From assembly GCF_025717535.1 (NCBI RefSeq), contig NZ_JAJIRO010000002.1:682001-746000 (forward strand): a stretch of DNA of 64,000 bases. Direction: 5' to 3'. Positions 9,017-64,000 of this stretch are shown one piece after another (the first letter of the stretch is position 1; each line of letters begins with the position of its first letter). The notes below the pieces were generated by a model. The model was not told where the DNA came from and did not search any database. It saw nothing but the letters and a program-made list of their open reading frames with translations. Source of the stretch: Paucibacter sp. Y2R2-4 (GTDB lineage: Bacteria > Pseudomonadota > Gammaproteobacteria > Burkholderiales > Burkholderiaceae_C). A program made the position numbers and the translations under genes.

Positions 9017-9061
9017 ACGCGCTGAACTGCCCCGGATCCTACTTATTGCGACCTACACATC

Positions 9062-9424: not shown

Positions 9425-9508
9425 GCCCTTGGGTTTCGGGCCCTCAAGTTCTAGGCCAAGCAGCCGAAGTCCAAAGACCAAGTTGTCCAAGGACTGAGGG
9501 GTGCCTGC

Positions 9509-10030: not shown

Positions 10031-10056
10031 TCGCCGAGCGAACCGGCAAACGGGCT

Positions 10057-10503: not shown

Positions 10504-10716
10504 GATTTTTCCCTCTGAACGATAGGCCTGAGGTCAAACCCGCCCAGCCAAGGCGAGCACGGCCGCAAGCGCCGCCCCCTGTTTTCTTATGGCTCTCATG
10601 GTGCCGCAAGCAGAAAAAGCAGCTGCAACAGTTGGTAAGCAAGTGCATGCCGCCGGGCACATCAGGAGCCGCGACAATAGCCAGGTCAGCGCAGCAAAAA
10701 AGAAAGAGCAAGAAGC

Positions 10717-11733: not shown

Positions 11734-11734
11734 A

Positions 11735-11756
11735 TCGACGGCCGAACGGCTGTCGA
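11735..11756. terminator. Hairpin between convergent ylqF and PstS-like gene
   Basis: TCGACGGCCG at 11735-11744 pairs with CGGCTGTCGA at 11747-11756, a ten-base stem with one G-T wobble and a two-base loop. It sits between two convergent genes, so it can serve both. There is no T-run. Confidence 0.5.
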
Positions 11757-11770
11757 CTCAAGATGCCCCC

Positions 11771-12211: not shown

Positions 12212-12273
12212 GGCTGTGTCCTGATCATGGAATGCAAATGCTGGGTTCATTCAATGCCTGTCGGTGCCAAGGC

Positions 12274-47841: not shown

Positions 47842-50800
47842 ATGCCGCTCAAGCCCCCCGATCCCTCTGCTTTCGCCACTGCCGCTGCGAGCCCGCAGCC
47901 AGCCGCCAAGACCTCGCCTCAGCTGCGTCTGCTGGGCGGCTTTGAATTGCGCGGCGCGCAGGGCCAGGTCTTGCCCCTGCCCTACGACAAGGTGCGCGCC
48001 CTGTTGGCCATGCTGGTCTTGCAGACCGGGCCGCTGTCGCGCGAGCTGCTGGCCGAAACCCTGTGGCCAGACTCCGCGCTAGAGCAGGCGCGCGCCAATC
48101 TGCGCCGCGCCTTGTTCGATTTGCGCCGGGTGCTGGCCCAGCTTTGGCCCGAACAGCCGGACCTCGAGCCGCTGCGGAGCGACAAAAAGCAGTTGCAGCT
48201 GCGCGATGACCTGGCCTGGCAACTGGACTGCCGAGACTTCGCCCTCGCGCAACTGGATGCCGCCACGCCGCAAGCCGAGGCACGCCGCCAGGCTCTGCAG
48301 CAGGCCATGGGCCTTTATCGCGGTCCGCTGCTGGACGGCTTGCAATTGCCCGAGGCGCCCGGCTTTGAGGCCTGGCTGCAGCCGCGCCGCGAAGCCTTGC
48401 TGCGCCAGGCCCAACAGGTGCTGGAGGCGCTGGGCCAGTTGCATGAAGACGCCGGTGAGGTCCAAGCTGCTCTGGCCTGCGCGCGCCGCGCCCTGGCCCA
48501 AGACCCCTGGTGCGAGCTGGCCCTGCGCCGTTGCATGCGCTTGCTGGCGCCCACCGCTGCCGGCGAGGCGCTGGCCTTGTTCGAGCAGTTCCGCAAGCAG
48601 CTGCAAGCCGAGCTGCAGCTGCAACCGCAGGCCGCCACCCTGGCCCTGGCCGAGGGTCTGCGCCAGACTTCATCGCTCGCCCCCGAGGTCCCGACCGCAA
48701 GAGCCGAACGCCGCCGCGTCGTCGCCCTGGCCTGCGAATGGGAAGCCCCGGCCGACGAAGCCGACCGCGAGGCCGAGGCCCTGGCCGCCGCCCTGCAAGC
48801 TCGGCTACAGCAAGCTCGCCAGCTGCTGCAGGCGCGCGGCGCCCATGTGCAGCGCGCCGAGGGCGGCGAGCTCTTGGCCTTTTTCGGCCACCCGCGCGCA
48901 CAAGAGCAAGCGCCGCGCCTGGCCCTGGATGCGGCGCTGGAGCTGGCCGCCGCGCAGGAAGAAAACAGCCGCCAGCCCTGGGCTCTGCGCCAGGGCCTGC
49001 ATGTGGGCTGGGTCCATGCCGACCCCGAACAGGCCTCTCCCGACAGTGTCGGTGCGCTCTCGCGCCTGGCGCGCAAGCTGGCCTTGCAGGCCGAGGCGGG
49101 CCATATCGGCGTCAGCGCCGAGCTGCGCCAGCAAAGCGAACGTCACCACCGTTTCGCCATGCCCCACACACCGGGGGGCAGCGCCGAGCTGCTGGGCGCC
49201 CGCCCGGCGCAAACTGCCAGCCGCCTGGACACGCTCAAGCCCATGGTCGGCCGCAGCACCGAGCTGGCCCAGCTGCAAGAGGAATGGGCGCGAGCCCAGC
49301 AGGGGGCACGCACGGTCTGGGTGCAAGGCGAGCCCGGCCTGGGCAAGACCCGGCTGCTGCTGGCCTTGCGCCAGCAAGTCGCGGCTCAGCCGGGGCACAG
49401 TGGGCAGCCTGCTCCGCCCATCTCACAGCTGCATTGCCGCCCCGAGTACCGCCACACCCCGCTGCAGCCGGTGCGCGCCACGCTGCGCCGGCGCCTGGGT
49501 GCCGCGCTGGAGGGCGACGAAGCGCAAGCCGAACAAGCCCTCGGCCTCCTCTTGCTGCAGGCCGGCATCGCCCCGGCCGCGCAAGCTGGCGCGCTGAGCC
49601 TGCTGCGCCCACTGCTGCTGCAGAGCCAGGCCGACACCGCCGCGAGCGAACCGCTGCACAAGCGCGAGCTGCAAACCTTGCTCTGCGAGCTGTTCGAAGG
49701 CCTGGCTCAAGGCCGGCCGCAGCTGCTGCTGCTCGAAGACCTGCACTGGGCCGACCCGTCCACGCTGGAGCTGCTGCAGCTGCACCTGCAACGACATCTG
49801 CAGCGCCCCGCCGCTCAGCGCGCTCCGGGCCTGCTGCTGCTCAGCTCCCGCGAGGCGCCGCCCGAAGACCTGCGCGCCAGCCTCGACCTCTGTCTGACGC
49901 TCAGCCCCTTGCCTGCCGATGACATGGGCCGCCTGATCGACCTGCTCGAGGGCAGCCCACCGCCCGCGGCCCAGCGCCAGCAAGTGCTGCAACGCGCCGG
50001 CGGTGTGCCGCTGTTTGCCGAAGAGCTGGTGCGCTCGCTGCGCCTGCGGCCCGAAGACAAGGTGCCCGCCACGCTCTGGGACCTGTTGGCCGCCAGCCTC
50101 GACCGCCTGCCGCCCGAGGCCAAACGCCTGGCCCAGGGCGCGGCTCTGCTGGGCAGCAGCTGCTCGCCGGCCTTGCTGCAAGAGCTGCTGCAGCTGCCGG
50201 CCGGGCCGCTGGCGCAGCAGTTGGCCCAGCTGGCGCGGCTCGATCTGCTGCAAGCCCACGGGCCGCAACACTGGCAGTTCCGCCATGCCTTGATTCGCGA
50301 CGCGGCACTGGAGACCCTCAGCGCCGGCGAGCGCCGCGCCTTGCACCGCCGCGCCGCCCAGACCTTGATGGGCCCCTTCGCCAGCCTCGCCGCCGATGCA
50401 CCCGAGGCCCTGGCCCAGCATTTGCACGCCGCCGGCGACCCGGTGGCCGCGCATTACTGGCTGCAAGCGGCCGAGCGCGCCGCCGCCCAATCGGCGCACC
50501 AGGAGGCGCGCCACGGTTTCGAGCAAGGCCTGGCCGCCCTGCAATTGCCCGAGGCCACGCCGGCCCTGCTGCAGCGCCTGCGCCTGCCCTTGCTGATGGG
50601 CCTGGGCCACGGCCTGTTGGCCCTGGAGGGCTATGGCTCGCCGGCCGCGCGCCAGTGCTACCGCCAGGCGCTGCAAGCCTGCGACGAAGCCGGTGCCAGC
50701 AGTGGCCCAGGCCAGCGCTTCCAAGCGCTCTGGGGCTTGTGGCTGGGCAGCCGCAGCGGCCCGGATGAGCGCCCCGTGCTGGACCTGGCGCAGGAGCTGC

Positions 50801-51660
50801 TGACGGTGGCCGCCGACACCGGCGATGCCGCTGCCGCCGTGCAAGCGCGTTATGCCCTGGGCAATAACCAGTTCTTCCTGGGCCACTTGCAAGCCTCGTG
50901 CGAAGCCCTGGCCGAGGCGGCCGCAGCGGGCGAACGCCTGCCCGCCCGCCAACGCACCCAGCTGACCCAGCGCTTTGGCGAGCATGGCGGCATCGCCGCG
51001 CGCGCCATGTTGGGCTGGCCCTTGGCTTTGCAGGGCCGGGTGGACGAGGCCCTGGTGCAAAGCCAGCTTGGCTTGCAGCAAGCACGCGAACTTGGCCACG
51101 CCCACACCCTGGGTTTTGCCCTGGCCATGAACGCAGTGCTGCAGCGCCATCTGCGCCGCCCCGAGGCCGCCATGCCGCTGAGCCTGGAGCTGCTGGCCCT
51201 GGCCGAGCGTCATGGCCTGGCCCTGTGGCAGGCCGTGGGCGCCCTGGTGCTGGGCTGGAGCCAAGCAGCCGGTGGCGACCCGGCCGGCCTGCTGCCCATC
51301 CGCCAGGCGGCCAGCGCCTCGGCCGTGGCCATGCCCAGCACCGAAGCGACCTTCCTCTCCTTTCTGATCGAAGCCTTGCTGAACCTGGGCCAGGCCGAGG
51401 AGGCCCTGGCGCAAGTGGACGCCTGCCTGCCCAAGGCGCAAGAGCGGCAGGAGTTCTACCTGCTGCCCGAGCTCTGGCGCATGCGTGCCCAGGCCCTGGC
51501 TGCCTTGGACGGGCCAGGCGCCGAAATTGAACAAGCGCTGGATGAAGCCTTGAAGGCCGGCCAAGCCATGGGGGCCGACTTGCTCTTGCAGCGCAGCGCC
51601 GCTCAGCGCCAGGCCCTGTTCAAGGGCTCTCCCGGCCTTTCAACGGAAATTCAACGCTAG
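47842..51660 (+). CDS. Large SARP/BTAD-type transcriptional activator with cyclase-like and AAA ATPase domains
   Basis: A 1272-residue regulator. Order: OmpR-type winged helix (about 27-105; LRLLGGFELRGAQG), BTAD helical repeats (about 115-270; ALQQAMGLYRGPLLDGL), a degenerate class III nucleotide-cyclase-like domain (about 288-435; RRRVVALACEW, FFGHPRAQEQ, LHVGWVHADP), an AAA/NACHT-like ATPase with P-loop GEPGLGKT at 496-503 and LLLLEDLHWADPS at about 628-640, and a long TPR-like tail (about 850-1260). The cyclase domain has lost the metal-binding Asp pair. It resembles the AfsR/PknK-like regulator class. It lies 68 bases before an outer-membrane barrel gene and probably controls the operon that follows (inference). 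Confidence 0.9.
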   Translation: MPLKPPDPSAFATAAASPQPAAKTSPQLRLLGGFELRGAQGQVLPLPYDKVRALLAMLVLQTGPLSRELLAETLWPDSALEQARANLRRALFDLRRVLAQLWPEQPDLEPLRSDKKQLQLRDDLAWQLDCRDFALAQLDAATPQAEARRQALQQAMGLYRGPLLDGLQLPEAPGFEAWLQPRREALLRQAQQVLEALGQLHEDAGEVQAALACARRALAQDPWCELALRRCMRLLAPTAAGEALALFEQFRKQLQAELQLQPQAATLALAEGLRQTSSLAPEVPTARAERRRVVALACEWEAPADEADREAEALAAALQARLQQARQLLQARGAHVQRAEGGELLAFFGHPRAQEQAPRLALDAALELAAAQEENSRQPWALRQGLHVGWVHADPEQASPDSVGALSRLARKLALQAEAGHIGVSAELRQQSERHHRFAMPHTPGGSAELLGARPAQTASRLDTLKPMVGRSTELAQLQEEWARAQQGARTVWVQGEPGLGKTRLLLALRQQVAAQPGHSGQPAPPISQLHCRPEYRHTPLQPVRATLRRRLGAALEGDEAQAEQALGLLLLQAGIAPAAQAGALSLLRPLLLQSQADTAASEPLHKRELQTLLCELFEGLAQGRPQLLLLEDLHWADPSTLELLQLHLQRHLQRPAAQRAPGLLLLSSREAPPEDLRASLDLCLTLSPLPADDMGRLIDLLEGSPPPAAQRQQVLQRAGGVPLFAEELVRSLRLRPEDKVPATLWDLLAASLDRLPPEAKRLAQGAALLGSSCSPALLQELLQLPAGPLAQQLAQLARLDLLQAHGPQHWQFRHALIRDAALETLSAGERRALHRRAAQTLMGPFASLAADAPEALAQHLHAAGDPVAAHYWLQAAERAAAQSAHQEARHGFEQGLAALQLPEATPALLQRLRLPLLMGLGHGLLALEGYGSPAARQCYRQALQACDEAGASSGPGQRFQALWGLWLGSRSGPDERPVLDLAQELLTVAADTGDAAAAVQARYALGNNQFFLGHLQASCEALAEAAAAGERLPARQRTQLTQRFGEHGGIAARAMLGWPLALQGRVDEALVQSQLGLQQARELGHAHTLGFALAMNAVLQRHLRRPEAAMPLSLELLALAERHGLALWQAVGALVLGWSQAAGGDPAGLLPIRQAASASAVAMPSTEATFLSFLIEALLNLGQAEEALAQVDACLPKAQERQEFYLLPELWRMRAQALAALDGPGAEIEQALDEALKAGQAMGADLLLQRSAAQRQALFKGSPGLSTEIQR

Positions 51661-51728
51661 CTCGGCAAGCTCTCGCTTAATTTCAGGCCCGCCACACATG
51701 CTGCGGGCCGTAGCGAGGGGATGCTTTG

Positions 51729-53096
51729 ATGCGGACAAGACCAAAACAACACAGGCGCCCGGCCGCCTGGGCGCTGGTAAGCCTGGGCCTGAGCCTTTCT
51801 TTGGCCGGCGCCAGGACCTATGCGGCCGAAGAAAGCAACGACAACCGCGGCAACCCGCTGCGTTTCTCTGGCTTTGCCACCTTGGGTCTGACCCACAACG
51901 ACAACGCCACGGCCGGCGCCGTCACCTCCTTCTCGCAGCTCAAGCCGGTGTACCAAGGCTGGTCGGCCAATATGGACACCGTGCTGGGTCTGCAGTTGGA
52001 ATGGCAGCCGCTGAACAGCACCACCTTTCAAGTGCAAGGCGTGGCGCGAGCCGGCGAAGACATGCAGCCGCGCCTGCGCATCGCCGCCCTGCGCCAGCAA
52101 CTGGGCCAAGGTCTGAGCCTGAACCTGGGCCGCATGCGCAGCCCGCTGTTCTTTGACTCCAGCATTGCCGAGATCGGCTATGCCAATCTGACCGTGCGCC
52201 CCTCTCCGACCATCTACGGCGTGATCAACAGCGTCGCCAGCTTGGACGGTGCCGATCTGCAGTGGCGCCTCAACCTGGGCGACGCCAGCCTGCTGGCGCA
52301 GGTCTTCGGCGGCCGCTACGACTACACCCACCGCTTCAACAACTTCTCGCCCGCCCTGTCGGCCGATGCCAGCCTGCGCGGCCTGCTCGGCTTCAGCCTC
52401 AGCGCCAATCTGCAAGACTTGACCCTGCGCGTCTCACGCACCGAGATTGACCGTTATGTGCTGCGCTCCGATCAAGTCACTCAAATCAACACCGGCCTCA
52501 CCCAGCTCAGCGGCGCTTTGCAGCAGATGACCCTCAACCCCATGCTGCCACCGGCCATGGCGGCCGCCTTGCAGGCCAAGGCACAGGGACTGGACGCCTT
52601 GCGCAACCCTTTCGACAACCGCCCCATCTACACCAGCGTCGGCCTGGACGGCAACTGGCAGCGCTGGCGCCTCTTGGCCGAGCTGACCTGGATGGACCCG
52701 CGCAACGATCTGGTCGGTCGCGGCACCGGCTACAGCCTCACCCTGGCGCGCAGCTTCGGTGATTTCACACCCTATTTGAATGTGGCCCAGCTGAAGCGCT
52801 CCAGCGCCAAGCTCAACACCTCGACGCTGGCCCCCACCGGCCTGAACCCGCAGCTCGACGCCGGGCTGAGCCAGCTGCAGCAGGGCTTTGACCAGGCCCA
52901 GCAGTTCGCCGACATCAGCAGCCGCTCGCTCAGCTTCGGCCTGCGCTGGGACTGGCGCGAGAACATGGCGATCAAAACCCAGCTCGACTTGGTGCGCACG
53001 CCCAATGCCAACACGCCTGGCCCGCTGGCCGTGCCTAAGCTGCCCTTCGACAACAAGCTCCAGCTGTTCAGCGTCACGCTGGACGCGGTGTTCTGA
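51729..53096 (+). CDS. Porin-like outer-membrane beta-barrel (copy 2)
   Basis: A 455-residue barrel with a signal peptide (ALVSLGLSLSLAGARTYAA) and many amphipathic strands, ending in a C-terminal phenylalanine (VTLDAVF). It shares the layout of the 12.3-13.4 kb barrel: FSGFATLGLTHNDNATAG at the start and FDNRPIYTSVGLDGNWQRW in the middle; both are followed by a short PstS-like gene. ATG 51729 has GAGGGG eight bases upstream. The next gene follows after seven bases. Substrate unknown. Confidence 0.84.
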   Translation: MRTRPKQHRRPAAWALVSLGLSLSLAGARTYAAEESNDNRGNPLRFSGFATLGLTHNDNATAGAVTSFSQLKPVYQGWSANMDTVLGLQLEWQPLNSTTFQVQGVARAGEDMQPRLRIAALRQQLGQGLSLNLGRMRSPLFFDSSIAEIGYANLTVRPSPTIYGVINSVASLDGADLQWRLNLGDASLLAQVFGGRYDYTHRFNNFSPALSADASLRGLLGFSLSANLQDLTLRVSRTEIDRYVLRSDQVTQINTGLTQLSGALQQMTLNPMLPPAMAAALQAKAQGLDALRNPFDNRPIYTSVGLDGNWQRWRLLAELTWMDPRNDLVGRGTGYSLTLARSFGDFTPYLNVAQLKRSSAKLNTSTLAPTGLNPQLDAGLSQLQQGFDQAQQFADISSRSLSFGLRWDWRENMAIKTQLDLVRTPNANTPGPLAVPKLPFDNKLQLFSVTLDAVF

Positions 53097-53103
53097 GGAG
53101 GGC

Positions 53104-53577
53104 ATGGACATGAACTTCGCAAAACACTTGTCGCCCCGTACGACCTCCACCTTATTTGCTCTGCTGACCCTGCTTTGGCTTGCCTCGTCACAGCCTGCGC
53201 TGGCCGCCAACGAACTGGTCGTGATCGCCCACAAAGACGTGGCGTTGGACAAGATCAGCCCCGAGCGCATGACGCAGATCTATCTGCGCCAGCAACAAAA
53301 CTGGCCCGATGGCCAAGCTATCCAGCCCATCGACCTGCGCGAGGGCAGCGGCCTGCGCCGCGCTTTCTATGACCAGGTCACCGGCCGCAGCCCTGGCCAG
53401 CTGCGCGCCTTCTGGGCACGCCAGAGCTTCACCGGCATGGGCTTGCCGCCGCGCCAGGTGGACAGCGATGAAGAAGTCACTCGCCTGGTGCAAAGCACGC
53501 CGGGCGCGATTGGCTACGTCTCACGCAAGCCCAGCGGCGCGGGCGTGAAAGTCCTGCTGACCGCCAATCTGGACTGA
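53104..53577 (+). CDS. Short PstS-like periplasmic substrate-binding protein (copy 2)
   Basis: A 157-residue exported protein behind GAGGAGG, with a signal peptide ending at PALAA and a one-lobe PstS-like fold: VIAHKDVALDKISPERMTQI, then R79-E-G-S-G in LREGSGLRRAF, matching the phosphate-binding RE-GSG loop of PstS better than copy 1 does, and PGAIGYVSRKPSG near the end. No Pst ABC genes are adjacent. It lies between the barrel and the HAMP/phosphatase protein, so it may be a ligand-binding input to that sensor (inference). Confidence 0.84.
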   Translation: MDMNFAKHLSPRTTSTLFALLTLLWLASSQPALAANELVVIAHKDVALDKISPERMTQIYLRQQQNWPDGQAIQPIDLREGSGLRRAFYDQVTGRSPGQLRAFWARQSFTGMGLPPRQVDSDEEVTRLVQSTPGAIGYVSRKPSGAGVKVLLTANLD

Positions 53578-53582
53578 CTGTT

Positions 53583-56150
53583 GTGACGACTGCCGCCACC
53601 GACCTCGGCCGCACGCAAACCAGCTGGCTGCGCCTGCTGGCGCCGGCCAGTTGGCTGTCGGGGCGGCTGAGTTTTTCGCGCAAGTTCCTGCTGGTCGGCG
53701 CGGTCATGCTGGTCGCCCTGGCCATGCTGAGCTGGCCGCTGCTGCGCAAGGCCAGCCAAGACGCACAAAGCGCCGAACTGGAGCGCCGCGGCCTGGCCGC
53801 CCTGGCCCAACAAGCGAGCGTGCTCAACACCTTGGTGCGCCAGCGCGGTGAACTCAAGGCCGAGCGCAGCGACGCCCAAGCCGTCAAGGCGGCCAACGCT
53901 GAACTGCAAGCCTTGCTGAGCTGGGCGTCCGCGCCGCAGGCGCCAACCCAGGCCCCATCCGTCAGCGCCCTGCCCAGCACCTTGCCCGCTCTGGCGCAGC
54001 GCCTGCAGCAGCAATGGCAGCAGTTGCAAGACCTGGGCGCGCAAGAGGACGATGCCCAGCGCCGCTTTGCCGCCCACACCGGCACCATCAACGCCCTGCT
54101 GGCCTTGATGCGCGAAAGCGCCCGCGCCCACCGCCTCAATGTGGACCCCAAGCTGGACGCGGCGTTTGAAATGCTCAGCCACCGCCTGCCCCTGCTGATG
54201 GAGACCCTGGCCAAGCAACAAGACGCGCTGGCCCTGTCCAGCGACAGCATGGCCAGCTACGCGGTGGCCGCCCAAGTGGTGCTGAGCGAGGCCACGCCCG
54301 CCCTGCGCGCCGGCATGCAGCAGCTGCTGGCGCCGGGCGACCGCGCTGGCCTGCAGGCCCAACTGGACGAACTGCTGGCCCGCATCGAACGCCAGCAAGA
54401 CGCCGTCGACAAAGTGCTGGATGCGCCCCAAGCCCTTGCCGAGCTGCGCCCCATCGCCAGCGCCAATCTGGCCCAAGCCCAAGCCTTGCTGGTGGCCAGC
54501 ACCGTGCAGGCCGACGCCTTGCTGCAAGAGCGCCTGACCCAGCTGCGCCGCAGCCAGTGGCAGGTGGGCGCGCTGTTGGTGGGGGCGATGGCGGCGATTG
54601 CCTATCTCTTCGCCGGCATCTATGTCTCCACCCTGCGCTCGCTGCGCCGGCTCTCACAAGGCACGCAAGACTTCTGCGCCGGCCGGCTGGACACCCGCAT
54701 CCACATCGACACCCAAGACGAGCTGGTCCTGGTGGCGGGCAACTTCAACACCGTGGCCTCTGAGGTGGGGCGTTTGCTCGATGTGATCCGCGAGCAAAAC
54801 GAGTCGCGCCAGCGCGAGCTGGAGCGCCTGGTGCAACAGCGCACCCTGGAGTTGGCCGACAAGAACGACCAGTTGCACCTGGCCGCCCTGCGCGTGCAAG
54901 AAGAGCTGGAGTCGGCCCGCGATATGCAGCAGGCCATCCTCCCGCAGCACTTCCCCGACACGGCGGACTTCTCCATGCAAGCCTGCATGCACCCGGCGCG
55001 CGAGTTGGGTGGTGATTTCTATGACTGTTTCGCGCTCTCGGGTGGCCGCTGGGGTTTTTTGGTCGCCGATGTGGCCGGCAAAGGTGTGGGCGCGGCCTTC
55101 TTCATGGCGGTCTCGCGCACGGTGCTGCAAGACCTGGCACAAGACGAACTCGGCCCCGAAGAAGTGTTGGCCCGTGCCAATGATTTGCTCAGCGGGCGCA
55201 ACCCCATGGAGCTGTTCGTCACCGCCTGCTACTGCATCTACGACCCGCGCGACGGCAGCCTCGCCTACGCCAGCGCCGGCCACCCGCCGCCGCTCTTGCG
55301 CAGCGCCCAAGGCGAGGTGCAGGCGCTGGACTGCGCGCGCGACATCGCCCTGGGCGTGCTGCCCGGCATGAGCTACAGCCGCCGCCACGCGCAGCTCGCA
55401 AGCGGCGACACCCTATTGCTCTACACCGACGGCATCACCGAAGCCTTTGACGCCGCCGAACGCGCCTATGGCGAAGAGCGCCTGATCGCCTGGCTGCGCA
55501 ACAGCCGCGAGCCCCAAGCCGCCGCCAAGCTGGCCAGCCTGGTGCGCGATGTGGCCGACTTCGTCGGTGGCGCCGAACCCAGTGATGACCTGACCGCCCT
55601 GCTGCTCTGCGGCAAGCCACGCACCGAGGGCGAGCCCTTGGCCGAAGCCCCCACCGATTCCCCCGACCTGTCCGCCAGCCCCCAAGCCCAAGGAGCTCTG
55701 ACCGTGAGCCACACCCCCCTGGAACTGAAGAACAAAACCTTGCTGTTGGAGTACCGCTTGGACAGCCGCGTCGAGGAGATCGCGCCGCTGGCCGAAGCGG
55801 TGGACGAAGCCCTGGCCGAGCGGCCCGATCTGGCCTTTGCCGTCAACCTCTGCCTGGAAGAGCTGATCACCAACACCATCCAACACGGCCTGCACGGCGC
55901 GCCCGACCGCCCCATCCATGTGCGGCTCTCACGCTCGGACGAGTGGTTGGAAATCATCCTCAAAGACGACGCCCCGCCCTTCGACCCCTTTGTCGAAGCG
56001 CCCGAGCCCAGCCTGGACGCCGGCGTGGAAGAACGTGCCGTCGGCGGCCTGGGCGTGCACATGGTCAAAACCATGATGGACGAAGTGCGCGCCTTCTACG
56101 ACGGCAGCGGCAACCTGATCGTGCTGCTCAAAACCCTCAAGAAGCCTTGA
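53583..56150 (+). CDS. HAMP sensor fused to PP2C-SpoIIE phosphatase and RsbW-like kinase domain
   Basis: An 855-residue inner-membrane regulator. TM1 (about 36-54), periplasmic helical region (about 55-320), TM2 (about 325-345), HAMP and coiled coil (about 345-450), PP2C/SpoIIE phosphatase (about 460-685; D478 in GGDFYD, D496 in DVAGKG, D668-D669 before LTALLL bind metals), then a GHKL anti-sigma kinase domain (about 710-850; N764 in EELITNTIQHG, GGLGVHMVK). Both opposing enzymes of a partner-switching system are in one chain, as in HsbR, but with a HAMP sensor in place of a receiver. The GTG start lies five bases after the PstS-like stop. Confidence 0.93.
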   Translation: MTTAATDLGRTQTSWLRLLAPASWLSGRLSFSRKFLLVGAVMLVALAMLSWPLLRKASQDAQSAELERRGLAALAQQASVLNTLVRQRGELKAERSDAQAVKAANAELQALLSWASAPQAPTQAPSVSALPSTLPALAQRLQQQWQQLQDLGAQEDDAQRRFAAHTGTINALLALMRESARAHRLNVDPKLDAAFEMLSHRLPLLMETLAKQQDALALSSDSMASYAVAAQVVLSEATPALRAGMQQLLAPGDRAGLQAQLDELLARIERQQDAVDKVLDAPQALAELRPIASANLAQAQALLVASTVQADALLQERLTQLRRSQWQVGALLVGAMAAIAYLFAGIYVSTLRSLRRLSQGTQDFCAGRLDTRIHIDTQDELVLVAGNFNTVASEVGRLLDVIREQNESRQRELERLVQQRTLELADKNDQLHLAALRVQEELESARDMQQAILPQHFPDTADFSMQACMHPARELGGDFYDCFALSGGRWGFLVADVAGKGVGAAFFMAVSRTVLQDLAQDELGPEEVLARANDLLSGRNPMELFVTACYCIYDPRDGSLAYASAGHPPPLLRSAQGEVQALDCARDIALGVLPGMSYSRRHAQLASGDTLLLYTDGITEAFDAAERAYGEERLIAWLRNSREPQAAAKLASLVRDVADFVGGAEPSDDLTALLLCGKPRTEGEPLAEAPTDSPDLSASPQAQGALTVSHTPLELKNKTLLLEYRLDSRVEEIAPLAEAVDEALAERPDLAFAVNLCLEELITNTIQHGLHGAPDRPIHVRLSRSDEWLEIILKDDAPPFDPFVEAPEPSLDAGVEERAVGGLGVHMVKTMMDEVRAFYDGSGNLIVLLKTLKKP

Positions 56151-56200
56151 GGCCAACGTCCTGCCTGCCTACCGAATTCGACCCAAAGAAAGACACCCCC

Positions 56201-56545
56201 ATGAGCTTCGAACACCAAAGCAGCGATGAACAAGGCAGCCGCCTGCTCAGTCTCAAAGGCCGCATCGACAGCGCCACCGCCGGCGCCTTTGAGCAAGCCG
56301 TGCAAGACCTGTTCGCCACGCCCGGCGCCCGCGCCCTGCTGGACTTTGCCGCCGTGGACTACATCTCCAGCGCCGGCCTGCGCGTGGTGCTGATGGCCGC
56401 CAAACGCGCCAAGCAAGCGCAGGGCCGTTTGCTGCTTTGCGGCCTGCCCCAGCATGTGCGCGAAGTGTTTGAGATCAGCGGCTTCTTGAAGATCATCGAC
56501 AGCGTCACCGACCGCGCCGAGGGTCTTCGCCAGTTGAGCGCCTGA
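56201..56545 (+). CDS. STAS-domain anti-sigma factor antagonist
   Basis: A 114-residue single-domain protein of the SpoIIAA/RsbV type: SLKGRIDSATAGAFEQAV, then ALLDFAAVDYISSAGLRVVLM with the phosphorylatable serine in ISSAGLR. It is the expected partner of the upstream kinase/phosphatase: phosphorylated when the kinase dominates and active when dephosphorylated. The target it releases (an anti-sigma factor, cyclase or regulator) is not obvious; the large activator at 47.8 kb is one candidate. ATG 56201 lies 50 bases after the sensor gene. Confidence 0.94.
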   Translation: MSFEHQSSDEQGSRLLSLKGRIDSATAGAFEQAVQDLFATPGARALLDFAAVDYISSAGLRVVLMAAKRAKQAQGRLLLCGLPQHVREVFEISGFLKIIDSVTDRAEGLRQLSA

Positions 56546-56568
56546 CTGCGAATTCCCACGGTTCCTTC

Positions 56569-58233
56569 ATGAGCATCTTTTTCAGCCTGTTCGCCGGGCT
56601 GGGCCTGTTCTTCATCGGCGTTCGCCTGATCAGCAGCAATCTGCGTCAGGTGATCGGCCGCCGCCTGCGCCAGCTGATTGCGCGCGCCGTCACCAGCGCG
56701 GGCTCGCTGGCCTTGTTCGGCCTGCTGGCCGGCGCAGTGATGCAAAGCGTCAACGCCGTCATCCATGTGCTGGTGGCCCTGGTCACCGCCGGGGCCATGG
56801 ACCGCAAGCGTGCCTTCCCCATCATCCGCTGGGCCAATCTGGGCACCTCGCTGCTGGCCCTGGTGGCCGCCATTGACTTGCATGCTCTGGCCCTGTGCCT
56901 GGTCGGCCTGACGGGCATTGCCTACTACCAGCAGATCGACCAATCCACCCGCTGGCGCCACGCCGTTGGCGCGCTGCTGGGCTTGGGCCTGCTGTTCCTG
57001 GGCACCGACTTCATCAAGACCGGCGCGGCCATGCTGCGCACCGCCCCTTGGCTGCGCGAGCAGATCGCCGAGCTGGGCGTCTGGCTGCTGCCCAGCTTCT
57101 TCATCGGCGCGGCGGTGGCCTGGGCCGCGCAGTCGTCCACCACGGTGGTGGTCATCACCATGAGCCTGGCGGCCGGCGGCCTGATTGGCTGGAACGGCGG
57201 CGCCATGCTGGTGATGGGCGCCGGCCTGGGCTCAGCCGCCTCGGCCTGGAACCTGGCCGGCCGCTTGCAAGGCAGCGCGCGCCAGCTGGTGCTGTTCCAG
57301 GTCTTGCTGCGCCTGCAGGGCCTGCTGCTCACCTTCATCTTCTACGCCTGCAACCGCTGGCTCTTGGACGAGCCCTTCGGCCGCCTGCTCGATCACTTTG
57401 ACATGGGCTTGCCCGCGCGGCTGGCAGCCTTCTATATGGTGGTGCAAGTGCTCAGCGACCTGGGCAGCCGCGCGCTAGAAAAACCCAGCCTGCGCTGGCT
57501 GCAAGCCTGGGCTGCGCCCTCGCTGCAAGAGAACCTGAGCAAGCCCCACTTTGTGCACGACGAAGCGCTGGACGAAGCCGAAACCGCCCTGCTGCTGGCC
57601 GACAAAGAGCAGCAGCGCCTGCTCGCCTGCCTACCCGCTTATCTCGACGCACTGCGGCAAGACGCCCCCGCCGCCCTGGCCTCGGCAGACAAACGCCAGG
57701 CCGCCGAGAGCCAGGTGCTGCAGCTCTGCGAGCAGTTCTTGGTGGAGCTGGCCGACCGCCAGCGCAGCCGCGATGTGCTGGAGCGCAGCATGGTGCTGCG
57801 CGACCGCAACCGCCTGCTCGGCTCGCTGCAAGAGTCGCTGGCCGAGCTGCACCAGAGCACCCAGGCCGCCATGGGCGACCCCACCGTCGCACAGCTGCTG
57901 GACCAGCTGGTGCAAAGCCTCCACATGATGTTGGAAACCCTGGCCGAAACCGCCGCACTCGCCCAGCCCGACGCCGAAGACCTGGAGCTGCTGCGCAGCC
58001 TCACCCACGACCGCTCGGAGCTGATGGACGGCATACGCCGCCGCCTGCAAGGCAGCGAGCTGGACGCCGGCCTGCGCCAGGCCGTGTTCAGCGCCACCAC
58101 GGTGTTTGAGCGCTGCGTCTGGCTGGCGCGGCGCTATGTGTTGCTGCTGGACAGCCCCGCCGCTTCGCAAGCATCGATGCACGCGGCCGCGCACAACACC
58201 TCGCCCGCCTTCTCTCCCTCACCCAAGAACTGA
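56569..58233 (+). CDS. Na/Pi cotransporter family protein with PhoU-like C-terminal domain
   Basis: A 554-residue membrane protein. Two inverted transmembrane repeats (about 1-310) carry the family motifs AVMQSVNAVIHVLVALVTAGA and AVAWAAQSSTTVVVITMSLA, the QS...T phosphate-path motifs. The C-terminal 225 residues are helical and PhoU-like (LDEAETALLLADKEQQRLLAC; LEDRNRLL-like segments). Members take up or export phosphate, or sense it. No ribosome site is evident at ATG 56569; 23 bases separate it from the STAS gene. Its link with a PstS-like protein in the same operon suggests phosphate or another oxyanion as the signal. Confidence 0.92.
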   Translation: MSIFFSLFAGLGLFFIGVRLISSNLRQVIGRRLRQLIARAVTSAGSLALFGLLAGAVMQSVNAVIHVLVALVTAGAMDRKRAFPIIRWANLGTSLLALVAAIDLHALALCLVGLTGIAYYQQIDQSTRWRHAVGALLGLGLLFLGTDFIKTGAAMLRTAPWLREQIAELGVWLLPSFFIGAAVAWAAQSSTTVVVITMSLAAGGLIGWNGGAMLVMGAGLGSAASAWNLAGRLQGSARQLVLFQVLLRLQGLLLTFIFYACNRWLLDEPFGRLLDHFDMGLPARLAAFYMVVQVLSDLGSRALEKPSLRWLQAWAAPSLQENLSKPHFVHDEALDEAETALLLADKEQQRLLACLPAYLDALRQDAPAALASADKRQAAESQVLQLCEQFLVELADRQRSRDVLERSMVLRDRNRLLGSLQESLAELHQSTQAAMGDPTVAQLLDQLVQSLHMMLETLAETAALAQPDAEDLELLRSLTHDRSELMDGIRRRLQGSELDAGLRQAVFSATTVFERCVWLARRYVLLLDSPAASQASMHAAAHNTSPAFSPSPKN

Positions 58234-58254
58234 TTGTTGAGGCCCCCCACTGTG

Positions 58255-60093
58255 ATGCAAGCTCTGAGCCGCTGGCTGCCCCCGTCCAAGCCGGTGCGCC
58301 GGCCCTTCGAGCTGATCTACGCGGCCGATGAATGCCCGCCGCGTGGTGCGCTCGGCCTGCTGGCCTTGCAACATGCGGCCACGGTGCTGGCCTTGATTGC
58401 CCATGTGCTGGCCGCCGCCAAGATCGCGGGCTTGAGCCTGCCGCAAACCCACTCCATCGTCGCCATGACCCTGCTGGGCATGGCCATGGGCACGGCACTG
58501 CAGGCCTGGGGCGGGCGCTGGGGTAGCGGCACCTTGCTGGTCTTCCAGCCCGACCCGATGATGATCACCGTGGCTGGCGCGGCCATCGCCAGCTACGGCC
58601 TGGGCTCCCTGGTGCAGGTAAGCCTGATTGCCGCCGGCGTCACGCTCTGCGTGGGCCCGCTGATGCGCCATCTGCGCGCCCTCTTCCCGCCCACCGTGGT
58701 GGGCACGGTGGTGTGCATGGGTGGCTTGGGGCTGGTAGAGCCGGCCATGCGCAATGCCTTGGGCATCCATGAAACGGCCCCGGTGGCCGGCAACTTGCAA
58801 ACGCTGCAGATCGACGGCATCAGCGCCCTCATCTCGGGCGCCACCCTGGCCAGCATCGTCGTGCTCTCGGTCTGGGGCGGGCGGCGCTTCAAGCTGCTGG
58901 GCGTGTTGGCGGGCTTGTTGATGGGCCTGCTGATCGCCGCGCTCAGCGACCGATTGCTGGGCCTGGAGTGGCTGCACAGCGCGCCTTGGTTGGCCCTGCC
59001 GCAGCCCATTGCGCCCAGCTTCAACCTCGGCCCCGAGATCATCTTTGCCATCGTGCTGATCGCCACGCTCAACCAGCTGGACAACATTGGCTGCCTGATC
59101 GTGATGGACAAGACCGACAACGCCGACTGGCGCCGCGCCGACATGCAAATGGTGGGCCGCGGCATCCGCGCCAATGGCGCGAGCGACTTTGTGAGCGGCC
59201 TGTTCGGCAGCTTCCCCACCGCGCCCAGCTCGGCCAATATCGCCCTGGTGCACGCCACCGGCTCCAGCAGCCGCTACATCGGCCTGGCCTGCGCGGCCCT
59301 GCTGCTGCTGGTGGCCCTGAGCCCGCTGCTGACCATGGCGCTCACGCTCATCCCGCAAGCCGTGCTGGGCGCCATCTCGCTCTATGCTGCCGCGTACTTG
59401 ATCGTCTCCGGCATCGAGATGATTGCCACCCGCGCGCTCGACAGCCGGGGCATCTTCATGGTGGGCCTGTCACTCTGCGCCGGCCTGGCCACCATGCTGA
59501 TGCCGGGCCTGAGCCAAGGCCTGCCCGATGGCCTGGCCATGCTGGCCGGTGACGGCTTTGTGGTCACCGGCGTTTGCGTGATGGGCCTGAACCTGCTGTT
59601 CCGCCTGGGCACCCGCTTGCGTGCCAGCTGCGAGCTGGACCCGCGCCTCGGGCCCATCAGCCACCAGCTCACCGCTTTTGTGGAGCGCCAAGGCGGCGCC
59701 TGGGGCGCCCGCATGGACATCGTCCGCCGCGCCGCCCTGGCCGCGCTGGAAGCCAGCGAAGCGATACAAGCCGCAGGCGGCGGCCGCCTGCTGGTGATAC
59801 GCGGCAGCTTTGATGAATTCAACTTCGACCTGGAACTGCTGCACGAAGGCGAGCCGCTGCGGGTGGGCGCTGCGGCCGAGCCGGGCGATGGCTCAGCGGG
59901 CAATGCGGCCGCTGTGCCGCTGGATCTGGATGCGCTGATGAACAGCGATGAAGACGATGTCGATATCGAAAGCCAACTCGACGCCGCCATGGCCCGCGTG
60001 TCAGGTGTGTTGATGCGCCACCTAGCAGACAAGCTCAGCAGCGCCAGCTTGGGGGCGGGGCAGGCGGTGTTGAGGTTGCATTTTGATCATTGA
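58255..60093 (+). CDS. NCS2 uracil/xanthine permease with C-terminal soluble domain
   Basis: A 612-residue protein. Residues about 1-460 are an NCS2 nucleobase transporter (LLALQHAATVLALIAHVL; FQPDPMMITVAGAAIASYG; FGSFPTAPSSANIALV). Residues about 470-612 form an extra soluble domain: FVERQGGAWGARMDIVRRAALAA, EASEAI, RGSFDEFNFDLELLHEGEPL, an acidic linker, then AMARVSGVLMRHLADKL and a closing RLHFDH (in pieces). The order of elements resembles a GHKL ATPase with a degraded N-box (Glu for Asn) and no glycine lid. ATG 58255 was chosen; GTG 58252 and TTG 58234 are also in frame. It ends the operon. Confidence 0.88.
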   Translation: MQALSRWLPPSKPVRRPFELIYAADECPPRGALGLLALQHAATVLALIAHVLAAAKIAGLSLPQTHSIVAMTLLGMAMGTALQAWGGRWGSGTLLVFQPDPMMITVAGAAIASYGLGSLVQVSLIAAGVTLCVGPLMRHLRALFPPTVVGTVVCMGGLGLVEPAMRNALGIHETAPVAGNLQTLQIDGISALISGATLASIVVLSVWGGRRFKLLGVLAGLLMGLLIAALSDRLLGLEWLHSAPWLALPQPIAPSFNLGPEIIFAIVLIATLNQLDNIGCLIVMDKTDNADWRRADMQMVGRGIRANGASDFVSGLFGSFPTAPSSANIALVHATGSSSRYIGLACAALLLLVALSPLLTMALTLIPQAVLGAISLYAAAYLIVSGIEMIATRALDSRGIFMVGLSLCAGLATMLMPGLSQGLPDGLAMLAGDGFVVTGVCVMGLNLLFRLGTRLRASCELDPRLGPISHQLTAFVERQGGAWGARMDIVRRAALAALEASEAIQAAGGGRLLVIRGSFDEFNFDLELLHEGEPLRVGAAAEPGDGSAGNAAAVPLDLDALMNSDEDDVDIESQLDAAMARVSGVLMRHLADKLSSASLGAGQAVLRLHFDH

Positions 60094-60435: not shown

Positions 60436-61083
60436 ATGAAGAATTTGAAGGTTTTGGCAGTCGCAGTCCTCGCGCTAGGTTTTTCAGCAGCGCAAGCGGG
60501 CCTCGTCTACAGCAATGTCAATCTGTCCAATAATGGGAACGAGGCTACCAAGTGGTTGCAGGCGGAGGACTTTACCTTGTCCGCCAGCGCAACACTGACT
60601 TCAGCCACCGTGTACATGGGCGTGACTGCCGGCGCGGTACCTGCGGTGTGGGACGGCAACTGGCAGTGGGGCATCTACAGCAGCGCCGGTAGCCAACCAG
60701 ATGCGCTGTTGGCCAGCGGCTCTGGCATTTCCAGCGCAGTTGATTCGGGTCAGTCGTTTTTCAACTCGGCCGTCTACGCATTCACCTTTGATCTCAATGA
60801 TTTCGCGGCGACTGCAGGGCAAACTTACTACCTAGGTATCCATGCAGCGAAAGATTTTTCTCAACGTGCTGGCCTTTACTGGGTTGGGTCGCATGACAGC
60901 GTGGGCGGCACAGGCCAAGAACTCTATGAAGGCAACACCCCGTGGAATTCGAATGGCGTAGAGCACGCCTTCTCACTCTCCAGCGATCAGCGCAACAATG
61001 TGCCGGAACCTGGGTCCCTGGCGCTGCTGCTGGCTGCTGCTGCGGGCATGGCTGCCGGATATCGCCGACGCGCTGCCCGCTGA
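60436..61083 (+). CDS. PEP-CTERM sorting-domain secreted protein (second)
   Basis: A 215-residue exported protein: signal peptide (VLAVAVLALGFSAAQA), a beta-rich body (FTLSASATLTSATVYMG; FAATAGQTYYLGIHA) and a C-terminal VPEPGSLALLLAAAAGMAAG followed by YRRRAAR. The body resembles the choice-of-anchor type modules common in this class. ATG 60436 has GGAAGG upstream. Codon use is less GC-biased than in the operon before it, as often seen for envelope proteins of this type. Confidence 0.93.
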   Translation: MKNLKVLAVAVLALGFSAAQAGLVYSNVNLSNNGNEATKWLQAEDFTLSASATLTSATVYMGVTAGAVPAVWDGNWQWGIYSSAGSQPDALLASGSGISSAVDSGQSFFNSAVYAFTFDLNDFAATAGQTYYLGIHAAKDFSQRAGLYWVGSHDSVGGTGQELYEGNTPWNSNGVEHAFSLSSDQRNNVPEPGSLALLLAAAAGMAAGYRRRAAR

Positions 61084-63024: not shown

Positions 63025-64000
63025 ATGAATCCGACTCAGCCCGTCCTCGCAAGCGCCACTCGCTCAAGGCAGCGACATATCGCCCGCCCCCTGGCCTTGA
63101 GCCTGGCTCTGGCCTTTGCGGCGCTGCCGATGGCGCCCGCCACGGGCGCAACCGTCATCACACTGAAGCCGGGCCTGCCGCTGACGCTGAACGACGATTT
63201 CGACCGCGACTACGGCCTGCAATGGGGCGACACCGTCTTTGACGGCCAGGGCCAGTTGGTGAAGACCGGGGCCGGTGCGATCCGCTGGCGCAACGCCAAG
63301 CTCACCTTCGCGCTGCTCGAGGGCAGCTTGATTGACATCCAGGCGGGTACTTTCTACGGCGGCGCCTCGGGCCGCGACGACTGGCGAAACAACAAGGCCG
63401 ATTTGAAGGTCAGCGGCACCGGCATCTTCGATGGCGGCAACGCCAATGTGCAGGTCGGCGCCCTGAACGGCAACGGTCTGATCCGCACCGGCGCTACCAG
63501 CGGCACGGGTTACCAGACCTTCACCCTGGGTGTGAGTAATCTGGACGGTAGCTTTGCCGGCGTGGTGGCTGACGCGCTCGGCCCGGGCCGCCTCACCAAG
63601 GTCGGCAGCGGCACGCAGATTCTGAGCGGCAACAACACCTACACAGGGGGCACCCATGTGGCGGCGGGCACCTTGGCCATCGGCAATGGCGGCAGCAGCG
63701 GCAGCATCCTGGGACCGGTGCAGGTGGACGCCGGCGCCAGCCTCGCCTTCAACCGTTCTTCCGACCTGACCTTTGCAGGCGCGATCTCTGGGGGCGGGCA
63801 GTTGCTCAAGCAGGGCTCTAGCGTCTTGACGCTCAGTACCCCCTTGGACGCTGCACTGAGCGTGCGCGTCGAAGACGGCTACCTGGAGGTGGCCACACCT
63901 TGGAAAAGCACAGCCGAGGTCAGCATTCTCGATCGTGGCTCGTTGAGCCTGACAAGAGGCGCAAGCGAACTTTCGGGACTGCTTCGGATGGAGTCCGGTG
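63025..64000 (+). CDS. Autotransporter-type passenger with beta-strand (PATR) repeats, 3' end outside window
   Basis: The frame is open from ATG 63025 to the window end, giving 325 residues of a longer protein. A long basic signal peptide (residues about 1-42; RHIARPLALSLALAFAALPM) is followed by repetitive beta-helix sequence with the autotransporter-associated strand motif LTKVGSGTQILSGNNTYTGG, then HVAAGTLAIGNGG, and LLKQGSSVLTLS. Such passengers are exported by a C-terminal beta-barrel or a PEP-CTERM signal; the C-terminus is beyond the window, so the export route is unknown. No ribosome site stronger than TTAGGAATC is seen upstream. Confidence 0.87.
   Translation, partial: MNPTQPVLASATRSRQRHIARPLALSLALAFAALPMAPATGATVITLKPGLPLTLNDDFDRDYGLQWGDTVFDGQGQLVKTGAGAIRWRNAKLTFALLEGSLIDIQAGTFYGGASGRDDWRNNKADLKVSGTGIFDGGNANVQVGALNGNGLIRTGATSGTGYQTFTLGVSNLDGSFAGVVADALGPGRLTKVGSGTQILSGNNTYTGGTHVAAGTLAIGNGGSSGSILGPVQVDAGASLAFNRSSDLTFAGAISGGGQLLKQGSSVLTLSTPLDAALSVRVEDGYLEVATPWKSTAEVSILDRGSLSLTRGASELSGLLRMESG

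Follow-up and report, generated by a model that had tools for sequence, protein, structure and literature searches.

Closest described systems

The RsbU/RsbV/RsbW and SpoIIE/SpoIIAA/SpoIIAB systems combine a PP2C phosphatase, a GHKL kinase, and a STAS protein that carries a phospho-serine, and partner switching of this kind has to date been described chiefly for sigma factors and cyclases. In Pseudomonas aeruginosa, HsbR has PP2C and GHKL parts in one protein, and SiaC, of the SiaABCD system, is a STAS-like protein. HsbR is described as a response regulator that works on one STAS protein, HsbA, which is reported to act on FlgM and, via HsbR, on RpoS (PMC6482189); SiaC is described as directly activating the cyclase SiaD, a nontranscriptional effector (PMC8457831).

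Two families of transporters are also relevant. SulP/SLC26 anion transporters with STAS tails join a transport fold to a domain of the switch family, and the NCS2 nucleobase symporters, such as UraA and UapA, belong to the same fold family (PF00860) as the permease described below. To our knowledge, the RsbU-RsbW fusion Rv1364c has neither a HAMP membrane sensor nor transporter partners. It is a solved PP2C-GHKL fusion (PDB 3ke6), and it was matched both by the fusion protein described here and by our model of the permease tail (Z 12.3).

The operon and how it compares

The window, a 64,000-nucleotide stretch of Paucibacter sp. Y2R2-4 DNA, contains the following features.

47842..51660, + strand: BTAD/AAA_16 (SARP-like) regulator ORF, 1272 aa, upstream neighbor (PF03704, 51.8 bits; PF13191, 61.7 bits)
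51729..53096, + strand: predicted porin/barrel gene, 455 aa, input cassette
53104..53577, + strand: mini-PstS (half PBP-like domain), 157 aa, input cassette (PF12849, 27.0 bits)
53583..56150, + strand: HAMP/SpoIIE/GHKL fusion, 855 aa (PF00672, 29 bits; PF07228, 178.7 bits; PF13581, 72.9 bits)
55773..56126, + strand: RsbW-type GHKL kinase domain within the fusion, all catalytic residues present in the alignment
56201..56545, + strand: STAS anti-anti-sigma-type protein, 114 aa (PF13466, 64.2 bits; TIGR00377, 72.7 bits, above cutoff)
56369..56371, + strand: Ser57 codon of the STAS gene, predicted phospho-acceptor
56569..58233, + strand: member of the Na/Pi-cotransporter family, 554 aa, C-terminal region long (PF02690, 118.2 bits; NF037997, 72.6 bits)
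58255..60093, + strand: NCS2-fold permease with putative pseudo-kinase tail, 612 aa (PF00860, 153.9 bits)
59593..60090, + strand: permease C-terminal tail, predicted RsbW/SpoIIAB-type GHKL fold without most kinase residues (AF2 model, fold and profile comparison)
63025..64000, + strand: 5' end of a gene whose 1657-aa product is a PEP-CTERM protein that has autotransporter-type repeats (PATR and PEP-CTERM Pfam matches)

The layout agrees with that given in the first-pass annotation: six plus-strand genes lie between 51729 and 60093, separated by 7 bases (barrel to mini-PstS), 5 (mini-PstS to fusion), 50 (fusion to STAS), 23 (STAS to Na/Pi), and 21 (Na/Pi to permease, counted from the permease ATG; with a start at the in-frame TTG, 58234, the gap would be 0), and the 1272-residue activator ORF, for which Pfam finds BTAD and AAA_16 domains, ends 68 bases upstream of the barrel gene.

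As in the RsbU/V/W and SpoIIE/AA/AB systems, PP2C, GHKL kinase, and STAS protein occur together with their motifs intact. Unlike those systems, the operon joins its phosphatase and kinase in one chain after a HAMP sensor, bears a second RsbW-type domain (a putative pseudo-kinase) on a membrane permease, and lacks a sigma factor gene, none being found with Pfam and NCBIfam profiles among the seven genes from 47842 to 60093. It shares with HsbR the union of PP2C and GHKL in one protein. The single STAS partner is a further likeness to HsbR as described, but here a membrane HAMP sensor, encoded with a porin and mini-PstS, takes the place of the response regulator (PMC6482189). The operon also has no diguanylate cyclase, and its effector would be a transporter rather than the cyclase of SiaABCD. 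SulP proteins carry the STAS domain themselves, whereas the NCS2 permease carries the opposite, RsbW-type partner and the STAS protein is separate. In contrast to UraA and UapA, the tailed permeases lack the nucleobase ligand residues, have an RsbW-type tail, and form a clade of their own.

Conservation of the operon in relatives

Counting only loci that span the whole core, we found nine complete copies (L022, L023, L024, L026 to L029, L156, and L157), from Roseateles/Paucibacter relatives, strain UKL13-2, and Burkholderia guangdongensis. The order and strand of barrel, PBP, PP2C-GHKL, and STAS genes were kept in all nine, even in B. guangdongensis (L029), where identity of the fusion protein falls to 58%, and the genes were not found scattered among these relatives. 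This conservation is beyond chance, and the operon is real. There is nevertheless variation around the core: phosphatase and kinase are separate genes in two sister species (L156 and L157), which also lack the Na/Pi gene; a 1650-aa gene sits between mini-PstS and phosphatase in L022; and the permease is missing in L029, while only a short remnant of its N-terminal part is left in L023. In UKL13-2 and B. guangdongensis the core and the Na/Pi gene persist although no intact tailed permease accompanies them, which shows that the permease is not a required part. The fusion protein was matched in 9/18 genomes of the genus at an E value of 1e-100 and in 13/150 genomes of the family at 1e-30, two of these 13 matches being full length (the own genome and G013, of the same genus) and 11 partial.

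The switch core

Pfam matches and hydrophobicity give the fusion protein the order transmembrane segment, periplasmic part of about 275 aa, transmembrane segment, HAMP, PP2C/SpoIIE, and GHKL kinase, the hydrophobic stretches beginning at residues 29 to 37 and 326 to 333. Asp496, Asp616, and Asp668/669 of the PP2C domain, which we take to bind metal, are invariant in four aligned proteins (own included). In the kinase, E50, N54, D85, G111, G112, and G114 are present in 11/11 aligned sequences (own included), and Ser57 of the STAS protein, which presumably corresponds to SpoIIAA Ser58, is serine in 14/14; the best solved relative of the STAS protein is 4hyl. By these motifs, the three components make up a full partner-switch core of the RsbU/V/W type, as had been claimed. 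The likeness to HsbR/HsbA that had been claimed with it holds for the PP2C, GHKL, and STAS core but does not extend to a receiver, since Pfam gave no Response_reg match on the fusion, which has HAMP instead. The fusion scored 75.9 bits against the SiaA model, for which the cutoff is 700.

The permease and its tail

The permease has the Xan_ur_permease fold (PF00860 cutoff, 27), and it lies just over the cutoffs of PF00916 (Sulfate_transp; 24.5 bits, cutoff 23.2) and the purine/pyrimidine permease model NF037981 (40.6, cutoff 40) and under those of pbuX (189.5, cutoff 414) and ncs2 (146.2, cutoff 291.8). In UraA, the nucleobase is presumably bound by Glu241 and by Glu (or Gln) at position 290. 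Neither was kept in any of 40 tailed cores, nine of them from the own genus, whereas 10 aligned untailed NCS2 cores had Glu241 in 9 and Glu or Gln at position 290 in all 10. In a midpoint-rooted tree, the tailed cores group together in a single clade (support 0.959). The permease is probably not a nucleobase carrier by UraA chemistry, and the tailed NCS2 family, which is spread across our Proteobacteria-level sample, appears to have lost nucleobase recognition. By homology alone these proteins would be called xanthine or uracil permeases, substrate assignments that are probably mistaken.

The tail, put forward earlier as a target for interaction tests, has the predicted fold of an RsbW/SpoIIAB-type domain. 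In VIA comparisons of its AF2 model (pLDDT 84.7), the ten best entries were all anti-sigma kinases (Z 11.6 to 12.6), led by UsfX (8ih8; Z 12.6, 116 residues, rmsd 2.4) and including the RsbW domain of Rv1364c; LvrC (Z 10.0), SiaB (8.7), and histidine kinases (about 7) came lower. The first 16 Foldseek rows were UsfX/RsbW/SpoIIAB chains, four of them at an E value of <0.001, hhalign returned a probability of 92.2 with GHKL and of 0.2 with STAS as the control, and the tail of a relative (L106) was matched by our GHKL profile (E value, 1e-3). The tails nevertheless differ from the 11 kinases at the catalytic positions: the N-box Asn and Gly111, present in all 11, occur in 0/26 tails, Asp85, also in all 11, in 1/26, Gly112 in 3/26, and Gly114 in 2/26, and much of the conserved motif is missing from the tails of L104, L105, and L109. 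The N-box Glu is still found in 16/26, so the site is not wholly erased. The tail therefore seems to be a dead kinase copy, a relative of the RsbW fold rather than a canonical kinase.

A switch that may act on transport

We propose, at about even odds, that the operon encodes a partner switch that senses the periplasm, and that its STAS protein gates transport by docking on the pseudo-kinase tail of the permease. Gene order and domain logic suggest that the porin and secreted mini-PstS would relay a signal from the periplasm to the HAMP sensor and that this sensor would set the PP2C domain. With catalytic residues intact, and by the precedent of RsbU/V/W, the GHKL domain would phosphorylate Ser57 of the STAS protein and the PP2C domain would remove the phosphate. 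In one phosphorylation state the STAS protein would dock on the tail and change the transport state of the permease, and in the other it would be released; the Na/Pi protein may be a second client or part of the same response. Of this scheme, we infer the binding of STAS to the tail, the effect of that binding on transport, the substrates, and the signal. By canonical precedent the docking form would be unphosphorylated STAS, but the direction is uncertain because HsbA (PMC6482189) and BtrV (PMC8256260) are described as binding their partners when phosphorylated. If docking occurs, a periplasmic signal would reach a transporter without transcription, in a mirror image of SulP with its built-in STAS domain, and the tailed permeases would gain a testable signaling role. 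With a single kinase, a single phosphatase, one STAS protein, and a tail that is soluble, the system is small and open to testing.

It is also conceivable, though rather unlikely, that the tailed NCS2 protein serves as a receptor: its altered site would sense a ligand, perhaps an anion, the tail would hold or free STAS and so give the switch a second input, and the output would lie elsewhere, in a sigma factor, a cyclase, or a surface protein. The loss of both UraA ligand positions would suit this, as would the Arg or Lys at the Glu241 position in 17/40 tailed cores, a GAF-NCS2-tail fusion in G988 (L112), and a tail that, without most kinase residues, looks like a docking part; yet the permease core scores far above the Pfam permease cutoff, and the Na/Pi transporter is likewise linked to switch genes without such a tail. 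Receptors with a full transport fold are, moreover, rarer than transporters.

Linkage of the transporters to switch genes

The Na/Pi protein also exceeds the cutoff (50) of the Na_Pi_symport model NF037997, and Pfam found no switch-binding domain in it. Na/Pi cotransporters have a QSS motif in both repeats; here the second repeat reads QSST and the first QSVNAV, and the L108 protein has QSSTAV and QSSSVA.

Taking a STAS, GHKL, or PP2C gene within 5 kb as linkage, we found that 8/25 tailed NCS2 loci identified by the tail alone were linked, as were 9/14 loci of the Na/Pi subfamily (8/13 without L108, first found by its tail), compared with 0/17 for other NCS2 genes and 0/17 for mini-PstS loci (Fisher test against other NCS2, P = 0.009 for tails, 1e-4 for Na/Pi, and 2e-4 for Na/Pi without L108). 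Seventeen of the 25 tailed loci, two of them at contig edges, had no switch gene in that range, including three genes of G822 and both G1217 copies, and 5/14 Na/Pi loci had none nearby. The linked arrangements vary: a tandem PP2C-GHKL-STAS-NCS2 set with a receiver as input (L162), GHKL-STAS-NCS2 with divergent PP2C (L110), STAS-NCS2-PP2C runs (L102 and L103), dCache-PP2C-Na/Pi-GHKL with STAS just upstream (L170), and NCS2-STAS-GHKL with convergent Na/Pi (L108). Such pairings recur in distantly related bacteria. In the class of G608, the tail occurred in 6/8 genomes with the Na/Pi protein against 5/164; without G608, a genome selected because of its tail, the count was 5/7 (P = 4e-6), or 4/5 by genus (P = 3e-5). 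Somewhat tentatively, since we put it just short of even, partner switching could act directly on membrane transport, with tailed NCS2 permeases and the Na/Pi subfamily as its client set.

An ordinary gene-expression switch, in which STAS or GHKL would act on a sigma or anti-sigma factor elsewhere and the transporters would be coregulated cargo, is in our judgment unlikely. Canonical partner switches are described as acting on sigma factors (PMC8256260), and Lysobacteraceae loci (e.g., L033, L041, and L044) have PP2C-GHKL followed by STAS without matches to these transporters or the barrel. But the seven genes include no sigma factor, and such a switch leaves unexplained both the RsbW-type domain on the permease and the recurrence of both transporter subfamilies near switch genes in distant genomes.

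The input cassette

The 455-aa barrel is a predicted 16-stranded outer membrane porin: its AF2 model (pLDDT 87.8) has 16 long strands, and the protein has an N-terminal hydrophobic helix and a C-terminal Phe, with no Pfam match at E values up to 1. VIA placed OprP (2o4v; Z 25.6) and OprO (4rjw; 25.3) ahead of other porins (≤24.4), a lead of only 1.2 Z for OprP over general porins, and Foldseek ranked OmpC/OmpF-type porins first (E value, 4e-13). Mini-PstS, which has a signal-like N terminus, matches PF12849 (PBP_like_2) exactly at its cutoff of 27 and over less than half of the profile (90 to 185 of 267). We rejected its identification as a PstS phosphate-binding protein, since it is a half domain of 157 aa that scores 21.2 bits against the PstS model TIGR02136 (cutoff, 206.6). 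Homologues occur in 37/166 genomes of the class (own included), with four copies in the own genome, and 9/17 mini-PstS loci have a nearby gene that encodes an MCP or GGDEF/EAL motif. The porin and mini-PstS thus form an input cassette of a generic kind, which occurs next to chemoreceptors and GGDEF/EAL proteins as well, and are not the novelty of the locus for which the barrel and PstS-like gene had been taken.

The first-pass annotation had mini-PstS sensing periplasmic phosphate or oxyanion and informing STAS, the transporters, and the BTAD activator, which is improbable: the PBP_like_2 match, the Na/Pi family member, and the phosphate/pyrophosphate porins OprP/OprO at the top of the VIA ranking are outweighed by the half domain and its shared use, the narrow OprP lead and the Foldseek order, the uneven presence of the BTAD gene (below), and the other inputs of homologous clusters (dCache in L170, receiver in L162).

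Neighboring genes

The BTAD gene is present in 5/9 complete copies (L022, where it is cut at the locus edge, L026, L027, L028, and L157), L156 being scored from 4.7 kb of upstream sequence only. The regulator does not follow the operon and is an upstream neighbor, not a conserved part of the module, which argues against its proposed role as an output of the switch. In two relatives (L022/L019 and L024), homologues of the PEP-CTERM protein are encoded inside the operon or immediately ahead of it, and this protein with autotransporter-type repeats is possibly an associated output.

A conserved partner-switching operon

Six forward-strand genes at 51729 to 60093 encode a barrel, a small PstS-like protein (mini-PstS), a HAMP/PP2C(SpoIIE)/GHKL fusion, a STAS protein, a Na/Pi transporter, and an NCS2 permease. 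Checking the gene coordinates in the window confirmed the genes and intergenic gaps reported in the first-pass annotation, and its domain names hold with two exceptions: Pfam returned nothing for the barrel, and the PstS-like protein matches its profile only in part.

The host genome is 5.13 Mb, and close copies of the operon are found in named records, including Roseateles and Paucibacter. Among the nine copies in which the locus spans the whole core (L022, L023, L024, L026 to L029, L156, and L157), the order barrel, mini-PstS, HAMP-PP2C, GHKL, STAS is kept in all nine, with gene calls made by a simple script and some of the scanning profiles built partly from the loci they then scanned; gene order in relatives, proposed earlier as a check, thus supports the grouping. 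L022 has an insertion 3' of mini-PstS, a gene for a giant surface protein. PP2C and GHKL are separate genes in L156 and L157, so that either the long protein arose by fusion or the gene pair by splitting, the parts remaining neighbours in both cases. The Na/Pi gene is absent from these two loci. Burkholderia guangdongensis (L029) lacks the permease, and strain UKL13-2 (L023) has only a fragment of it. The fusion protein is present in 9 of 18 genomes of the genus; among 150 genomes sampled from the family, the only whole-length matches were two genus members, the other 11 being partial.

The BTAD (SARP-like) gene upstream (47842 to 51660) had been counted as part of the module, a view not upheld by its presence in five of the nine complete copies. 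Region 245 to 1255 of its product matches a TOMM kinase/cyclase fusion model at 305 bits (cut-off, 706), so a cyclase-like domain, in degenerate form, may lie between its BTAD and AAA_16 domains.

The permease combines a core lacking the UraA ligand residues with a predicted pseudo-kinase tail

By sequence, the solved structures related to the permease core are those of UraA and of a uric acid-xanthine permease. It clears the Pfam cut-off for Xan_ur_permease by a wide margin and that for Sulfate_transp by a narrow one (24.5 versus 23.2); among curated NCBIfam models it exceeds the cut-off only for NF037981, again narrowly (40.6 versus 40). In cores that carry the C-terminal domain described below ("tailed" cores), neither of the UraA ligand positions is retained: Glu241 is kept in 0 of 40, as is Glu or Gln at position 290, and the residue at 241 is Arg or Lys in 17 of the 40 and Asp in the permease of the window. 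Ten untailed cores, six of them close relatives of one another, have Glu241 in nine cases and Glu or Gln at 290 in all ten; seven of the 17 untailed control loci yielded no NCS2 core that was long enough or above threshold and so fall outside this alignment. Tailed cores form one clade (support, 0.959) in a midpoint-rooted tree, with 35 tailed tips remaining after near-identical ones were dropped.

The last ~160 residues of the permease gave no Pfam hit over the cut-off. A profile of seven tails aligned with the GHKL kinases of these clusters over 126 columns (hhalign probability, 92.2; E value, 5.9e-7); against STAS proteins the probability was 0.2. An AlphaFold2 model built from 26 tails (pLDDT, 84.7; pTM, 0.77) runs strand-helix-helix-strand-strand-helix-strand-strand, with an additional short helix at 112 to 116, and this predicted order is that expected for an RsbW-type domain. 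The solved structures closest to the model are UsfX, RsbW, and SpoIIAB. In the 26 aligned tails, six of them from the host's own genus, the N-box Asn is kept in none, Asp85 in one, Gly111 in none, Gly112 in three, and Gly114 in two; each of these residues is present in 11 of 11 aligned kinases. The N-box Glu is retained in 16 of the 26. Judged by its residues, the tail is a pseudo-kinase.

Several variants were seen. A second, partial copy of permease and tail lies 1.6 kb downstream in L024 (18080 to 19468); it is ~91% like that of the window and includes an unknown or masked stretch. L106 has two tailed NCS2 genes (8292 to 9977 and 10032 to 11924) on opposite strands, tail to tail, and the two sit on separate branches within the clade of tailed cores. 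In L112 (9581 to 12100) a domain scan placed a GAF domain N-terminal to the permease in one protein; this was seen in a single genus, and L113 (9527 to 12058), from the same genus, encodes a protein of similar length. L154 (6117 to 7946) and L155 (6530 to 8380) encode NCS2 permeases that keep Glu241 and carry a different tail, GHKL-like by eye (EEA motif); it was matched by neither the tail profile nor the GHKL profile, and no switch genes (STAS, GHKL, or PP2C) lie nearby.

Tailed permeases and Na/Pi transporters recur beside switch genes

The tail profile matched 7 of 369 genomes of the class, 4 of 398 of the phylum, and 5 of 300 of the order (own genome counted each time), and 11 of 172 in the class of G608, a genome chosen for its tail and counted here. 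Members of the Na/Pi subfamily turned up in 5 of 166 genomes with the own genome included and in 8 of 172 with G608 included. In the genome searches, scoring was limited to the top candidates of a permissive first pass, so absence is weak evidence.

Outside the own genus, 25 tailed genes were found via the tail; switch genes lie within 5 kb of eight and of none of the other 17, the contig-edge loci L111 and L161 being tallied as misses. By genus the figure is 7 of 17, with two contig-edge loci omitted. This tally leaves out own-genus loci and L035, L039, L042, L047, L053, and L054, whose retrieval by way of the phosphatase biases them towards linkage; L153 (a broken gene), L154, and L155 belong to neither the tailed nor the control group. 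For Na/Pi loci outside the own genome the count is 9 of 14, or 8 of 13 without L108, which is tallied for both transporters. Controls gave 0 of 17 for untailed NCS2 permeases (from the same and other class genomes) and 0 of 17 for mini-PstS loci, with several control loci (L192 to L194, L196, and L197) cut short by contig ends. Against the untailed control, Fisher's P was 0.009 for tails, 1e-4 for Na/Pi, and 2e-4 for Na/Pi without L108; counts are per locus, and phylogeny is allowed for only through the by-genus counts.

The two transporters also co-occur. In the class of G608, 6 of 8 Na/Pi-positive genomes are tail positive versus 5 of 164 others, assuming that the two samples of this class are the same genomes; without G608, the centre of both searches on account of its tail, the figure is 5 of 7 (P = 4e-6), or 4 of 5 by genus (P = 3e-5). 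In the own class, two of the four other Na/Pi-positive genomes are tail positive (G181 and G270, not G243 or G291). Some loci resemble a minimal operon: PP2C-GHKL-STAS-NCS2 (L162), STAS-NCS2-PP2C (L102 and L103), STAS followed by dCache-PP2C-Na/Pi-GHKL (L170), and NCS2-STAS-GHKL with a convergent Na/Pi gene (L108). The input domain varies (dCache in L170, a receiver in L162), and switch and transporter are constant.

A chance neighbourhood is ruled out by the nine conserved copies together with these linkage counts. A horizontally acquired island was also set aside: GC is higher in 48 to 60 kb, yet half of the genomes searched within the genus have the operon.

A candidate client of the STAS switch

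In canonical switches, phosphorylation of the STAS protein ends its grip on the RsbW-type protein (PMC8256260); HsbA and BtrV are described as deviating from this phosphorylation rule (PMC6482189 and PMC8256260), and STAS-type proteins may have targets other than sigma pathways, such as SiaD (PMC8457831). Since a pseudo-RsbW domain sits on a membrane protein encoded beside STAS, its kinase, and its phosphatase, the permease is best read as a putative STAS client. That STAS would dock on the tail and alter transport is the reading to which we give most weight, at about even odds. The tailed NCS2 protein may instead be a receptor, an input to the switch rather than its output, a possibility that we regard as rather unlikely. 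Nor do we favour an ordinary gene-expression switch with the transporters as passengers, which seems improbable.

The core switch, the porin, and the transport folds were already known. Among the open-licence PMC papers listed by our searches, none linked an NCS2 or a Na/Pi transporter with a partner switch. Nor did these listings show what appears to be new here, an NCS2 fold lacking the nucleobase ligands paired with a pseudo anti-sigma-kinase tail and recurring beside partner-switch genes.

A seemingly portable periplasmic input

The barrel is modelled as a 16-strand porin (pLDDT, 87.8). VIA placed the phosphate porins OprP and OprO at the top, with a lead of 1.2 Z over the porins that follow; by Foldseek, OmpC/OmpF porins come first. 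The earlier proposal that an oxyanion, perhaps phosphate, is the signal is, in our estimate, very unlikely to be right; it concerns the signal, and so overlaps and is compatible with STAS acting on the permease.

Of 166 class genomes, 37 have relatives of mini-PstS; the own genome is one of these and has four copies. At 17 mini-PstS loci, three of them the own genome's other copies, a barrel gene adjoins in 15 (8 by profile and 7 more by size and C-terminal Phe, the remaining 2 not being resolved), and nine have a nearby gene with short sequence motifs of MCP (five) or GGDEF/EAL (four) type. The adjoining barrels and varied neighbours make porin plus mini-PstS look like a periplasmic input module that can be moved between several outputs, and the pair, first presented as part of the novelty of the operon, is a generic cassette. 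A second pair lies in the window at 11771 to 12250 (-) and 12274 to 13431 (-) (L191), and further own-genome pairs are at C2:348723 and at C4:176661, the latter close to a gene with a GGDEF/EAL motif.

PEP-CTERM surface proteins near the operon

Giant PEP-CTERM proteins (45 to 48% identical) are encoded at three differing positions of the one locus, which suggests a functional tie; the output may concern the cell surface or biofilm. The region also has a small PEP-CTERM protein encoded on either side.

PEP-CTERM genes at the operon
Window 63025-64000 (L209:1026-5999): giant protein, ~1650 aa, autotransporter-type repeats; 2.9 kb 3' of the operon, other genes between
L022:4903-9855: giant homologue within the operon, between mini-PstS and phosphatase
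L024:3048-8093: giant homologue immediately 5' of the barrel
Window 45997-46671, - strand: small protein, weak similarity to PepA (flocculation protein), under cut-off
Window 60436-61083, + strand: small protein, weak PepA similarity, likewise under cut-off
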